Positions 8,051 to 16,208 of a DNA stretch of 20,582 nt are shown here, in pieces. The stretch lies in IMG/VR virus record IMGVR_UViG_3300017967_000286, positions 1 through 20,582 of that record; one strand, 5' to 3'. The translations under genes were made by a program, and so were the position numbers. Under the pieces are notes generated by a model. That model saw nothing but the letters and a program-made list of their open reading frames with translations. It was not told the DNA's origin and ran no database searches. How positions within the stretch are numbered: the first letter of the stretch is position 1; every line of letters begins with the position of its first letter. This DNA is from a virus.

Positions 8051-8080
8051 AATATATTTTTAAATATTAGAGCTTGACAA
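8051..8080 (-). promoter_or_regulatory. Candidate leftward promoter for the terminase genes
   Basis: On the leftward strand TTGTCA (8080-8075, five of six to consensus) is followed after 18 bases by TATATT (8056-8051, five of six). The predicted start near 8044 would give a short leader before the small terminase ATG at 8010. Its -35 overlaps that of a rightward candidate. Confidence 0.4.
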
Positions 8081-8102
8081 TATAAAAAAAAGGTGGCAAA
8101 AT
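8074..8102 (+). promoter_or_regulatory. Candidate rightward promoter sharing a -35 with the leftward one
   Basis: TTGACA at 8074-8079 is a perfect -35. A 17-base spacer leads to CAAAAT at 8097-8102, four of six to the -10 consensus. It would transcribe into a stretch without a rightward gene until 8565 and so could make a non-coding RNA or a long leader. Confidence 0.35.
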
Positions 8103-8290: not shown

Positions 8291-8421
8291 TGAGAAAATT
8301 CTTTGTAAGTCATTGATTATTAAGATCGTTTTCAAAAAAAAGCCAGGGATTTGAAAGTAAAAATAAAAATAAAGCGGATTGTAAATTTTTCCCCTGTCCA
8401 TTTAAAACAATTCTTTACCAC

Positions 8422-8460
8422 TTCGTTACGACTTCGTAGATATTTCGTTAATACTTATTA
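8422..8460 (+). repeat. Partial copy of the origin-like element
   Basis: The 17-mer at 8422-8438 (TTCGTTACGACTTCGTA) is identical to 13612-13628 inside the replication protein gene. Downstream, TTCGTTA recurs at 8444-8450, followed by TAATACT and AAATCTAT in the same order as at the other site. This copy lies in non-coding DNA, so its conservation is not due to protein sequence. The flanking 8314-8500 is otherwise very AT-rich and shows no gene. Confidence 0.6.
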
Positions 8461-8501
8461 AATCTATTTGTAGTAAATAATTTATATATACCAGTAATTA
8501 A

Positions 8502-8510
8502 TGTTATAAT
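8502..8510 (+). promoter_or_regulatory. Extended -10 promoter for the first rightward genes
   Basis: TGT then TATAAT (8505-8510) is a perfect extended -10. No convincing -35 is present, which extended -10 promoters tolerate. The start is predicted near 8517, giving a leader of about 48 bases. Confidence 0.65.
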
Positions 8511-8564: not shown

Positions 8565-8927
8565 ATGACAAAATTTAAACAGTTAAGAAGTAACTACGAA
8601 GTTCTTATAGATTTATGTAACTATCTCGAGTTTGATGTTGAAACATTAGACATTGCCATTAATTGTTTTGATGGTGAGGATTTAGTTAAATATCTTAAAG
8701 AGTGTCCAATTGGTGAAGGACAATCCGAAACTATCGAATATCCTGATGGAGAAAAGATGTTAATCATTTCTTTAGACTACCCAGATTTAGAAGAACATGA
8801 CGACAGGGTTATCGTTGCTAATTTTATGGGTGTTACAGTTTGGAAAAACAAAACAACATACCAAAGACAAACTGAGAAACCTCTGTTTCAATCTTTTGTA
8901 GATGTTTTTGCATACGAGGAGGTTTAA
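8565..8927 (+). CDS. Acidic early protein of unknown function
   Basis: This 120-residue protein is not recognised. It has a helical N-terminal third (an LRSNYEVLIDLCNYLEF stretch near residues 7-23), then an acidic region (EYPDGEKMLI and DYPDLEEHDDR, about 58-83), then a beta-rich end. No metal-binding or catalytic pattern is seen. TATAAGGAG lies at a good distance before the ATG. It is the first gene of a two-gene unit with its own promoter and ends one base before the next start. Its small size, acidity and early position suit a host-takeover or DNA-mimic protein, but this is only inference. Confidence 0.65.
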   Translation: MTKFKQLRSNYEVLIDLCNYLEFDVETLDIAINCFDGEDLVKYLKECPIGEGQSETIEYPDGEKMLIISLDYPDLEEHDDRVIVANFMGVTVWKNKTTYQRQTEKPLFQSFVDVFAYEEV

Positions 8928-13330: not shown

Positions 13331-14005
13331 ATGATGTCTATTATCGACAACATTATCAAAAACCATACAGAACACGAGATCGAAGAATATACTGGTGCTT
13401 CTTTACAAGCGTTATTAACGCACAAAGGAACACAAAAAGTATTCAAGCTCACTTTGTTCTTTGGTTATAACAAATCTAAAAACCCAATTTATCAAACAAT
13501 AGAGATAACTGAGAACCAGTATTTGCAGTTAAGTTCTGCTGTGTTAGATAAGAATAATTCAGTTCTTAAAAAACATAATAGTTTATTGACTGATGATGAA
13601 TTATTTGGAAGTTCGTTACGACTTCGTAACGACCCTACTAATACTAATACTAAATCTATAAATACTAATACTACTAATACTAATACTTTAAATATAGAAA
13701 AATATATTGAAAAAGGTTATGAGAAAAAACGGATTGATGAATTGGTTACACATAGGAAAGCATTGAAGAAGCCATTACTAACTGACAGGATGTTAAGTGG
13801 TCTTTTGAAATCTTTGGATAGATATGCGGCGCATTGGGATATAACTTTTGATGATGCTTGTAAGTATTACCTATCACAATCATGGATAAGCATTGATGTT
13901 GAATACAAATACCCTGCTCGTTTAGTTAAGAAAGATACTAAAGAGTTAGACTTCACCGACATCAAGAATAAATTACTAGAAGCAAAACAAAGGAGAATAG
14001 GTTAA
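13331..14005 (+). CDS. Putative replication initiator (lambda O-like organisation)
   Basis: The 224-residue protein has two parts joined by a low-complexity linker of Asn and Thr (about residues 100-118). The N-terminal part (1-95) is mixed alpha/beta and unassigned. The C-terminal part includes KRIDELVTHRKALKKPLL and ACKYYLSQSWISIDVEYKYP, resembling helical C-terminal domains of phage replisome organisers that end in a W-containing loop. The linker is encoded by an origin-like array, just as lambdoid O genes contain their own origin. AAGGGGGA precedes the start. The next gene overlaps by one base (TAATG). It would bind the origin and recruit host helicase; this is inferred from architecture, not from clear homology. 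Confidence 0.55.
   Translation: MMSIIDNIIKNHTEHEIEEYTGASLQALLTHKGTQKVFKLTLFFGYNKSKNPIYQTIEITENQYLQLSSAVLDKNNSVLKKHNSLLTDDELFGSSLRLRNDPTNTNTKSINTNTTNTNTLNIEKYIEKGYEKKRIDELVTHRKALKKPLLTDRMLSGLLKSLDRYAAHWDITFDDACKYYLSQSWISIDVEYKYPARLVKKDTKELDFTDIKNKLLEAKQRRIG
13613..13714 (+). other. Probable replication origin inside the initiator gene
   Basis: A perfect palindrome of nine-base arms around CT spans 13613-13632 (TCGTTACGA, CT, TCGTAACGA). It is followed by five copies of TACTAATAC starting at 13636, 13642, 13663, 13672 and 13678, then by a strongly AT-rich stretch to about 13714. Initiator binding sites, direct iterons and an easily melted segment, in this order and within the initiator gene, match the lambda-type origin plan. 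A 17-base part of the palindrome recurs in non-coding DNA at 8422. Confidence 0.6.
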
Positions 14006-14490
14006 TGTATCAAAGAGATGAAAAGATCGATCTTGGAGTTGTTGCTACAGACATAGCACAATGGTCAATAATGCATTACGGATATTTTGTTAAGTCATCA
14101 CTTGACAAAGTAGAACTAATACAAAGATTTGCTGAGGACTTGGACAGATTGCCAAGTAACTCAATAAGATTCGTAAACAAGGTTCAGGAAGAATGGGTAG
14201 ATGGTGGAAACAATAGACCACCAACAATACCTGAGTTCCTGGCTGAATTAAGAAAACATCATAATCGTGATAATGCAAACAATCATCAGATTGAATATAA
14301 ACCACAACGCATTGACTATGCTGGTATGTGGGATGGTGCTGAATCAAGAGGTTTAGACGCTGCCAAGCATTACATGAAGATGACTTACAATGCACGAGAA
14401 GTTTCTCCAGCCACTAAGTATGTGATTAGGAGTTTCTTTGAAAAGCACGGATATACCAAAACACAATTTAAGGAGATGAAATTACTATGA
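14005..14490 (+). CDS. Possible helicase-loader analogue or replication accessory protein
   Basis: This 161-residue protein is not firmly recognised. It has a helical N-terminus, an RPPTIPEFLAELRKHHN segment near residues 72-88, and a helical C-terminus with SPATKYVIRSFFEKHGYTK. Prolines followed by an EFL helix at this position also occur in some phage replication P-type proteins. It starts on the last base of the initiator gene stop, so it is coupled to it, exactly where lambda P lies after O. The role is proposed mainly from position. Confidence 0.45.
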   Translation: MYQRDEKIDLGVVATDIAQWSIMHYGYFVKSSLDKVELIQRFAEDLDRLPSNSIRFVNKVQEEWVDGGNNRPPTIPEFLAELRKHHNRDNANNHQIEYKPQRIDYAGMWDGAESRGLDAAKHYMKMTYNAREVSPATKYVIRSFFEKHGYTKTQFKEMKLL

Positions 14491-16208
14491 ATGTTTTAAG
14501 TTTATTTGACGGAATGTCATGTGGCCAGATTGCCCTGGACCAATTAGGAATTAAAGTAGATAACTATTTTGCGGCAGAGATTGATAAGTTTGCAATACAA
14601 GTTGCAGAAAAGAATTATCCCAATACCATTCATTTAGGTGATGTGAAGCAGATAAGAGGGGATGTTTTGCCGCAAATTGATTTATTGATAGGAGGCTCTC
14701 CATGTCAAGGTTTCTCATTCGCAGGGAAACAATTAAACTTTGATGACCCACGCTCTGCATTGTTCTTTGAGTTTGTTAGATTGTTAGATGAAACTAAACC
14801 CAAATATTTCTTGCTTGAGAATGTGCGCATGAAGCAAGAATACCAGGATGTGATTACTGAGTATCTTGGTGTAAAACCTATCTTGATTAACTCAGCATTA
14901 GTATCAGCACAAAATAGAAACAGATTGTATTGGACTAACATACCAAACATCACACAACCTGAAGATCGAGGATTGTTACTTAGAGATGTGTTGGAAGATA
15001 TAAACGAGTTTGATAGAACTTGTGAGCCAAGAGAGTTTAGTGAAGATTCATTGTGTCATCATAGTGCTACTGCTACTGACATAAAAGGCAATGATTCAAT
15101 CAAGCGTGTATATGCACAAACTGGTAAATCTCCCACACTAACAACTATGCAAGGTGGACATAGAGAACCAAAAGTTACTATTGTTCCTGAGATTGTTAAA
15201 GTTAGAAAACATGAAGTAGATGTTGAAAAACTACAACAAACATTAAGAGAACATAGAAAACCAATCAAACAAATAGTAGAACACTTAGGAGTTAAGAAAA
15301 CAACTGTAGAGCATTGGTTTAGAACTGATAGTTCGTTCTCTATACCTGATGAAGATGTTTGGTTCGATCTTAAAAGTTTTCTTGGTATAGAAACAGATGA
15401 GTTCGATAAGTCAATAACAGAGTTTGAAATTAGAGAGGGTGTGTATGAGATGGCTAATCGTGTGTATAACCCAGACTATAAAGCACCTACTGTAGTTGCT
15501 AGTCAGGTATCTAAAGTATCTTGCGGCAGATTAGTTAATCGTAGAATCAATCCTGAAACTGGTAAGCGTGATGATTATAACCAGGACCTGGAACTAGAAC
15601 CAAGAATAGAGCCTCGTGAAGATGATAAGTCTGGATGTCTAACAACTGTAACTAAAGACAATGTTGTGATAAGAGATATGCCTGATGAGTTCATACAACA
15701 AGAGATTCGTAAACTACTGGGTGATTCTAAATACAAAGATAACTTCATGTGGAGATTTGATAAGCAAGGAAGAATACTTGTTATGCGACCAGATGGATTA
15801 AAGATACAGAGAATAGGCAGAATTGCTTTCCCTGATAATAAGTCTGAAATCGTAACATCTTTAGCACAACCTCATGTTGTTGATACTTTGTATGTCAGAG
15901 AAGCAACTAAGAAAGGTTTTGCAGAAATAAAACCTGGTGAGTGTTTTGACGCTACATTTCCTAACAGCAAGACAAGAAGAGGTAGAGCTATGAGGGAGAA
16001 GTCAAACACATTGATGGCAGCAAACTTTGAATATAATCATTGGAATGGGTATAGTTATAGAAAATTAACCCCGATCGAGTGTGAAAGATTACAGACAGTT
16101 CCTGATAACTACACAGAAGGTGTATCAAAAAGTCAAAGATATAAAATGCTTGGCAATGGATGGACTGTTGAAGTTATCAAACACATCTTTAAAAATATAG
16201 TAGAATGA
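14487..16208 (+). CDS. DNA (cytosine-5) methyltransferase with long inserted region
   Basis: The 573-residue enzyme would transfer a methyl group from S-adenosylmethionine to cytosine C5. Motif I LSLFDGMSCGQ is at 4-14, catalytic Cys73 lies in GGSPCQGFS, ENV at 111-113 and QNRNR at 142-146. Near the end come YRKLTPIECERLQTVPD (524-540) and the motif X segment GNGWTVEVI (556-564). All core motifs are present. Most members are 320-420 residues, so roughly 150-200 extra residues lie in the target recognition region. This includes a helix-turn-helix-like stretch at about 244-300 and several short TL(T/M)-type repeats. It overlaps the preceding gene by 4 bases. No partner endonuclease is visible, so protection from host restriction is the likeliest role; target sequence is unknown. 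Confidence 0.93.
   Translation: MNVLSLFDGMSCGQIALDQLGIKVDNYFAAEIDKFAIQVAEKNYPNTIHLGDVKQIRGDVLPQIDLLIGGSPCQGFSFAGKQLNFDDPRSALFFEFVRLLDETKPKYFLLENVRMKQEYQDVITEYLGVKPILINSALVSAQNRNRLYWTNIPNITQPEDRGLLLRDVLEDINEFDRTCEPREFSEDSLCHHSATATDIKGNDSIKRVYAQTGKSPTLTTMQGGHREPKVTIVPEIVKVRKHEVDVEKLQQTLREHRKPIKQIVEHLGVKKTTVEHWFRTDSSFSIPDEDVWFDLKSFLGIETDEFDKSITEFEIREGVYEMANRVYNPDYKAPTVVASQVSKVSCGRLVNRRINPETGKRDDYNQDLELEPRIEPREDDKSGCLTTVTKDNVVIRDMPDEFIQQEIRKLLGDSKYKDNFMWRFDKQGRILVMRPDGLKIQRIGRIAFPDNKSEIVTSLAQPHVVDTLYVREATKKGFAEIKPGECFDATFPNSKTRRGRAMREKSNTLMAANFEYNHWNGYSYRKLTPIECERLQTVPDNYTEGVSKSQRYKMLGNGWTVEVIKHIFKNIVE

Follow-up and report, generated by a model that had tools for sequence, protein, structure and literature searches.

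To our knowledge, the replication origins of uncultured tailed phages have rarely been located. The element at 13612-13714 of the DNA studied here, a palindrome followed by short repeats and an AT-rich tail inside a putative initiator gene, raises the question of whether it is such an origin, and what a partial copy of it some 5 kb away, ahead of the early genes, may do. The stretch analysed (hereafter the window) is a 20,582-bp IMG/VR fragment, IMGVR_UViG_3300017967_000286, of an uncultured aquatic virus of bacteria. Terminase, portal and capsid genes run leftward from about 8.0 kb, and early and replication genes run mostly rightward from 8565 to about 17.2 kb. The portal and terminase place the phage in an uncultured group, with IMG/VR relatives that are 71-87% identical; cultured phages are remote (about 25% in the portal), and the closest annotated records are mostly Pelagibacter, Roseobacter and Puniceispirillum phages. 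The window also carries a direct repeat of 109 nt (328-436 and 619-727; 82% identity, 291 bp apart).

Relatives of the initiator N-terminal domain were found on five IMG/VR contigs (L143, L144, L145, L146 and L147) by an alignment-based protein search of viral contigs. A single-sequence protein search of viral contigs returned none, and no relatives were found in the genome contigs, GenBank phages and plasmids searched. The six initiators compared, that of the window and these five, represent about four diverged lineages, all from one uncultured group; L144 shares a contig with L051, and L147 with L088.

The putative initiator gene

The gene that contains the element, its parts and its downstream neighbour are as follows.

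13331-14005 (+): putative replication initiator gene, 224 aa, with an orphan N-terminal domain, a low-complexity linker and a C-terminal loader-like domain; assigned from PHROG 678 and the relatives
13331-13609 (+): coding part of the N-terminal domain, putatively DNA-binding; AlphaFold2 model
13706-14002 (+): C-terminal domain, putatively recruiting a helicase loader; its type differs between L146/L147 and L143-L145
14005-14490 (+): 161-aa gene directly downstream, placed where a helicase loader or partner would be expected; without a family match

The 13331-14005 protein matched PHROG 678, 'replication initiation O-like', weakly as a whole (E = 5.5e-5) and with E = 0.0033 for the C-terminal part alone; the match spans residues 68-168 only and comes mostly from a region that takes in the linker. 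Neither the protein nor its N-terminal domain had a Pfam match, and the N-terminal domain alone had no PHROG match. This domain is predicted with fair confidence (pLDDT 84) to adopt an alpha-beta-beta-beta-alpha fold, for which a search of PDB and viral folds gave no structural match at E <= 0.001, and it shows no recognised DNA-binding fold; the full-length model is weak (pLDDT 59.5). A single-strand-binding-protein-like gene precedes the initiator gene.

Three types of C-terminal domain were distinguished: those of L143, L144 and L145 are mutually alignable, those of L146 and L147 form another type (PHROG 15768, plus a very weak DnaD-like helicase-loader match), and that of the window is a third. 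In L146 and L147 a DnaB-like helicase gene directly follows the initiator gene (PF03796, E = 1.5e-17 in L146). Retention of the N-terminal domain and linker with exchange of the C-terminal domain and its partner is a known modular pattern of lambdoid O genes. Adjoining the replication genes of the window is a 573-aa C5 cytosine methyltransferase gene (14487-16208, +; PF00145, E = 3e-52). Its best match spans residues 1-258 only and a second stretch is also matched, suggesting a long insert.

The linker is constrained as DNA

Within the linker, three features follow one another.

13612-13632 (+): two 11-bp-phased iteron units, TTCGTTACGA and TTCGTAACGA, together making the 9+2+9 palindrome
13633-13687 (+): CCC, then a TACT/TAAT (CTA-trinucleotide) tract, likely a melting or single-strand capture element; identified from codon identity and the blind scan
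13687-13714 (+): AT-rich tail, TTTAAATATAGAAAAATATATTG, by direct reading

What the original prediction had read off the letters was confirmed directly: the perfect 9+2+9 palindrome (TCGTTACGA-CT-TCGTAACGA, 13613-13632), the five overlapping TACTAATAC units (at 13636, 13642, 13663, 13672 and 13678), a 17-mer present at both loci, and the shared order of TAATACT and AAATCTAT. Its view of the TACTAATAC units as iterons was not borne out. They look like part of a melting tract, whose trinucleotides run CTA CTA right after CCC and then ATA CTA ATA CTA in phase, and the likely binding sites are instead the 11-bp-phased TTCGTWACGA units.

Comparison of the relatives showed that all six linkers, across the three C-terminal domain types, read as TTCGTWACGA-like units, then CGACYC, then CTACTA and its continuation. 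An exact TCGTWACGA occurs only once in each of the linkers of L143, L144, L145 and L147 and is absent from that of L146 (TCGTCACGA). Wherever two tracts encode the same amino acid they use the same codon (window and L143, 12/12; window and L144, 14/14; window and L147, 9/9; L143 and L144, 12/12), whereas the N-terminal domain keeps 35-54% of codons in diverged pairs, with synonymous-codon identities to the window of 20/57 for L143, 24/62 for L144 and 19/43 for L147. The difference between the tract plus iteron part and the N-terminal domain gave Fisher p values of 9e-6 to 5e-3 over six diverged pairs. Threonine is always ACT and asparagine always AAT in all six tracts, compared with about 50% each in the rest of the genomes. 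When about 1.1 Mb of DNA from related phages was scanned blind for stretches with 9 or more TACT/TAAT words per 48 nt, the six initiator linkers were the only hits. These comparisons indicate that the linker is constrained as DNA in the six relatives, so that the expectation that the DNA itself is conserved holds for the iteron units and the tract, but not for the perfect palindrome, which the relatives do not keep. A search with the DNA pattern ACGACYCTACTAWTACTWA returned the known relatives together with L150, L152, L153, L154 and L155; the latter five were rejected as relatives, their matches sitting in unrelated coding genes.

It could be argued that the linker is a slippage-prone Thr/Asn spacer with pure codons arising from repeat expansion, and that the palindrome reflects coding constraint on SLRLRND. 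Slippage does expand low-complexity linkers, the AlphaFold confidence of this one is low (pLDDT <50), and the purity of one tract could have such a cause. However, the same words recur from lineage to lineage, even where the encoded residues change (TNTNTNT to TILTTTTLNTT), codon identity in the tract is complete across lineages that differ at half of the synonymous sites elsewhere, the units occur in non-coding DNA too, and the tract is found nowhere else in the related DNA scanned. This explanation is disfavoured and appears most improbable.

A second locus at the early promoter

The partial copy lies where the rightward-running early genes begin.

8421-8453 (+): second locus, three 11-bp-phased units, TTCGTTACGA (8422), TTCGTAGATA (8433) and TTCGTTAATA (8444), one perfect and two degenerate
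8449-8498 (+): AT-rich stretch containing TAATACT and AAATCTAT, ordered as at 13612-13714
8481-8510 (+): predicted early promoter reading rightward, TTTATA-18-TATAAT, in which TG precedes the -10 box; a consensus match only
8565-8927 (+): first of the rightward early genes

Consensus searching found 5 promoter matches in the window against 3.7 expected. Judging from gene order, the early promoter probably drives the initiator gene. Another good match, TTGACA-17-CAAAAT with TG (8074-8102, +), points rightward into 300 bp without a rightward gene and may belong to a leader or a small RNA; an Rfam search gave no matches.

The 17-mer TTCGTTACGACTTCGTA is exact at both 8422 and 13612. TAATACT follows at +27 in both loci and AAATCTAT at +38 (8460) and +40 (13652), the only two sites of that word in the window. 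Among 4048 segments tested, the best local-alignment partner of 13606-13714 was the 8421 segment, which scored 54; the next independent segment reached 43. The original statement that chance identity of 17 bases is very unlikely proved too strong: direct repeats of at least 17 bp arose in 2-10% of Markov sequences of the same length and composition, and the window has other 17-18-mer repeats. The 17-mer alone is therefore weak evidence, and the case rests on the relatives. Nor does the 17-mer serve as a family signature, as its only matches in viral contigs were L001, an overlapping near-identical contig, and L002, an unrelated coding match.

The core word TCGTWACGA was found exactly three times in the window and in each of the contigs of L143, L144 and L145 (G013, G001 and G014), against about 0.05-0.13 expected per window, and in all four only in the initiator linker and the early promoter or intergenic region. 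In 956 kb of related phage DNA it occurred twice (0.04 per 20 kb), one of the two (in L026) being at the same early locus. The results also showed a triple unit, GTCGTTACGA-AGTAGTACGA-AGTCGTTACGA, with 10-11-bp phase at the early locus of L143, L144, L145, L026 and L159. Its 31 bp are identical in L143, L144 and L145 while the flanks diverge, and the outer units are slightly changed in L026. Exact words common to both loci of one phage were seen in two lineages, the 17 bp of the window and GTAGTACGAAGTCGTTACGA of L145.

In the relatives with the triple unit, it sits between a TTGACA-N16/17-TAGAAT/TACAAT promoter and the start codon of the first early gene, whereas the window has its second locus upstream of the predicted promoter, so that one operator geometry does not fit all. 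L147 has no second locus, although the early region is on its contig; a TCGTAACGA at L147:752 was set aside as chance, as it falls in the portal gene region. The L146 contig ends before the early region. Taken together, four contigs and two partial ones support the reading of a second locus, and one lacks it. The idea of two loci was thus borne out in L143, L144, L145, L026 and L159, which have a matching site at their early promoter, and failed in L147. The losses in relatives that had been named beforehand as telling against the prediction, of the palindrome or of the 8422 copy, were for the most part not seen, the exceptions being the imperfect palindrome and, again, L147.

These data bear on the possibility that only the linker site is an origin and the 8422 copy a functionless partial match, neutral or due to chance. 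The frequency of such repeats in simulations, the two degenerate units out of three, the case of L147 and a promoter geometry unlike that of the relatives are all compatible with it. We nevertheless consider it quite unlikely, given that L143, L144, L145 and L026 have the core word at the counterpart early promoter, that the first three contigs have it otherwise only in the linker, and that AAATCTAT is restricted to the two window sites.

DnaA-box-like arrays and a regulator-like gene in relatives

The early intergenic regions of L143, L144, L145, L026 and L159 contain an oriC-like array of 7-11 same-strand DnaA-box-like 9-mers (TTATCCACA, TTATCAACA and TTATCCACT). The arrays, at L143:1084-1251, L144:4849-5100, L145:5820-6071 and in the L026 and L159 early regions, span about 160-290 bp and are followed by CTAATAATAATAATAATAAAAAAAAG and then by the promoter and initiator units. 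Within the array region, 11-mers of the form ATCRCGTTAAG are repeated in L144 (4926-4978) and L145 (5897-5949). An automatic scan also gave 8-box arrays in L029 and L087. The first early gene of the relatives (L143:1502-1798; L145:6349-6651), which adjoins the triple unit, resembles SarA/Rot winged-helix regulators; the L145 match to PF22381 (E = 1.4e-5) is below the curated cut-off.

The succession of boxes, CTAATAATAATAATAATAAAAAAAAG, promoter and iterons in these five relatives would suit an early-promoter locus that is itself a second origin, in the relatives a composite plasmid-like one that combines initiator iterons with host DnaA boxes and a (TAA)n/A-rich melting tract; in plasmid F, too, oriS has iterons together with DnaA boxes and an AT-rich 13-mer (PMC13028717). 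The early locus of the window, however, has no DnaA boxes, and where such an array is present it might just as well serve DnaA titration or transcription control; on balance a second origin seems unlikely. A related proposal, doubtful but conceivable, is that there are two coupled initiation sites: an origin in the initiator gene with a DnaA-trio/TnnT-like melting tract, iterons replacing the DnaA boxes, and an oriC-like early locus in the relatives. If this were true, the DnaA status of the host could gate or assist phage replication. A DnaA-box array in a phage early region is in any case directly testable as a second origin, as a means of DnaA titration or as a control element.

Could the sites be operators of a phage transcription regulator and not of the initiator, lying in the initiator gene for transcription control? 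The SarA/Rot-like gene beside the triple unit in L143, L144 and L145 would be a candidate regulator. Against this, the first early gene of the window has no SarA/Rot match, the protein common to all carriers is the initiator N-terminal domain, L146 and L147 retain the linker site, and an operator does not explain the adjoining TACT/TAAT tract. We regard this as very unlikely.

Cumulative GC skew, suggested at the outset as a check, was rejected as origin evidence; it tracks gene direction and gives no independent origin signal.

Proposed function of the two loci

The explanation that we consider likely is that 13612-13714 is a lambda-like replication origin in the linker of the initiator gene, and that the early-promoter units are a second initiator-binding site, most likely autoregulatory. 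The reading of the linker as an origin is well supported by comparative sequence. On this model the orphan N-terminal domain would bind the 11-bp-phased TTCGTWACGA units along one face of the helix, and the resulting initiator complex would melt the TACT/TAAT and AT-rich tract next to them. Capture of the strand laid bare, perhaps by the loader-like C-terminal domain or a partner, would follow, and the C-terminal domain would bring in the helicase through its partner, in keeping with the helicase gene next in L146 and L147. As the initiator accumulates, the units at 8421-8453 would dampen early transcription, possibly with a loop between the two sites. The initiator may thus start copying and also control its own supply.

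If so, an origin, its initiator and a second site are readable from sequence. The comparison of relatives itself reveals a constraint on the DNA within coding sequence. On the proposed reading, an apparently unrelated initiator would have reached the lambda arrangement, and the phage offers a test case for trinucleotide or TnnT melting tracts as a general solution beyond DnaA.

Comparison with known systems

In lambda the origin lies in the middle of gene O and has inverted-repeat iterons, two of which together with the AT-rich tract form the minimal melting fragment (PMC7466680). Judged against lambda, the linker element contains the parts required of an origin. The present element resembles lambda and lambdoid O in that inverted-repeat iterons and then an AT-rich tract lie mid-gene in the initiator, an arrangement kept in the six relatives, and in that phages exchange the C-terminal side but keep the N-terminal side and origin. 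Unlike in lambda O, the N-terminal domain is an orphan alpha-beta-beta-beta-alpha domain without a Pfam, PHROG or fold match, and Pfam and PHROG searches found no homology to the N-terminal DNA-binding domain of lambda O. The iterons also differ in being short 11-bp-phased TTCGTWACGA units, the tract in consisting of TACT/TAAT repeats, and the phage in having, at its early promoter, a second putative binding locus; we know of no lambda counterpart to this locus.

Initiator-type repeats at both an origin and a promoter, the arrangement proposed here, are known from iteron plasmids, of which F, with its initiator RepE, is one and P1 and pSC101 are others. RepE of plasmid F also binds repeats between its promoter and its open reading frame, and loops oriS to incC (PMC13028717). 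In the relatives only, DnaA boxes and an AT-rich tract accompany the repeats, as in F oriS. Unlike the iteron plasmids, the present case is a phage, its putative origin lies inside the initiator gene and its operator-like locus, 5 kb off, heads the early gene run; no sequence relation between Rep proteins and the initiator was found. Of these known elements, the RepE operator of plasmid F resembles the second locus most closely, and autoregulation is favoured as the role of that locus.

The linker also resembles the bacterial basal unwinding system and DnaD recognition element of the subtilis origin (PMC8287927, PMC10201434) in its order of sites, a short C-rich spacer and CTA trinucleotides, which read 3'-GAT-5' on the bottom strand, with TnnT words on the top strand. 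The central-A rule for DnaA-trios (NAN, 3'-5'; PMC8287927), applied here as at least three trinucleotides in phase, agrees with the tract on the bottom strand, but it is a loose rule, framed for sites beside a DnaA box. The DnaD recognition element is a 5'-TnnT-3' motif (PMC10201434), and the TACT/TAAT repeats (at least 9 per 48 nt) provide the two or more copies that it calls for on the strand opposite the trios. No DnaA box with 2 or fewer mismatches was found at a distance of up to 16 bp from the trios in any of the initiator linkers tested, the best upstream 9-mer having 3-5 mismatches to TTATCCACA, and the element is therefore not a basal unwinding system; phage iterons occupy the place of the DnaA box. 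The linker may work in a similar way, with the phage initiator replacing DnaA.
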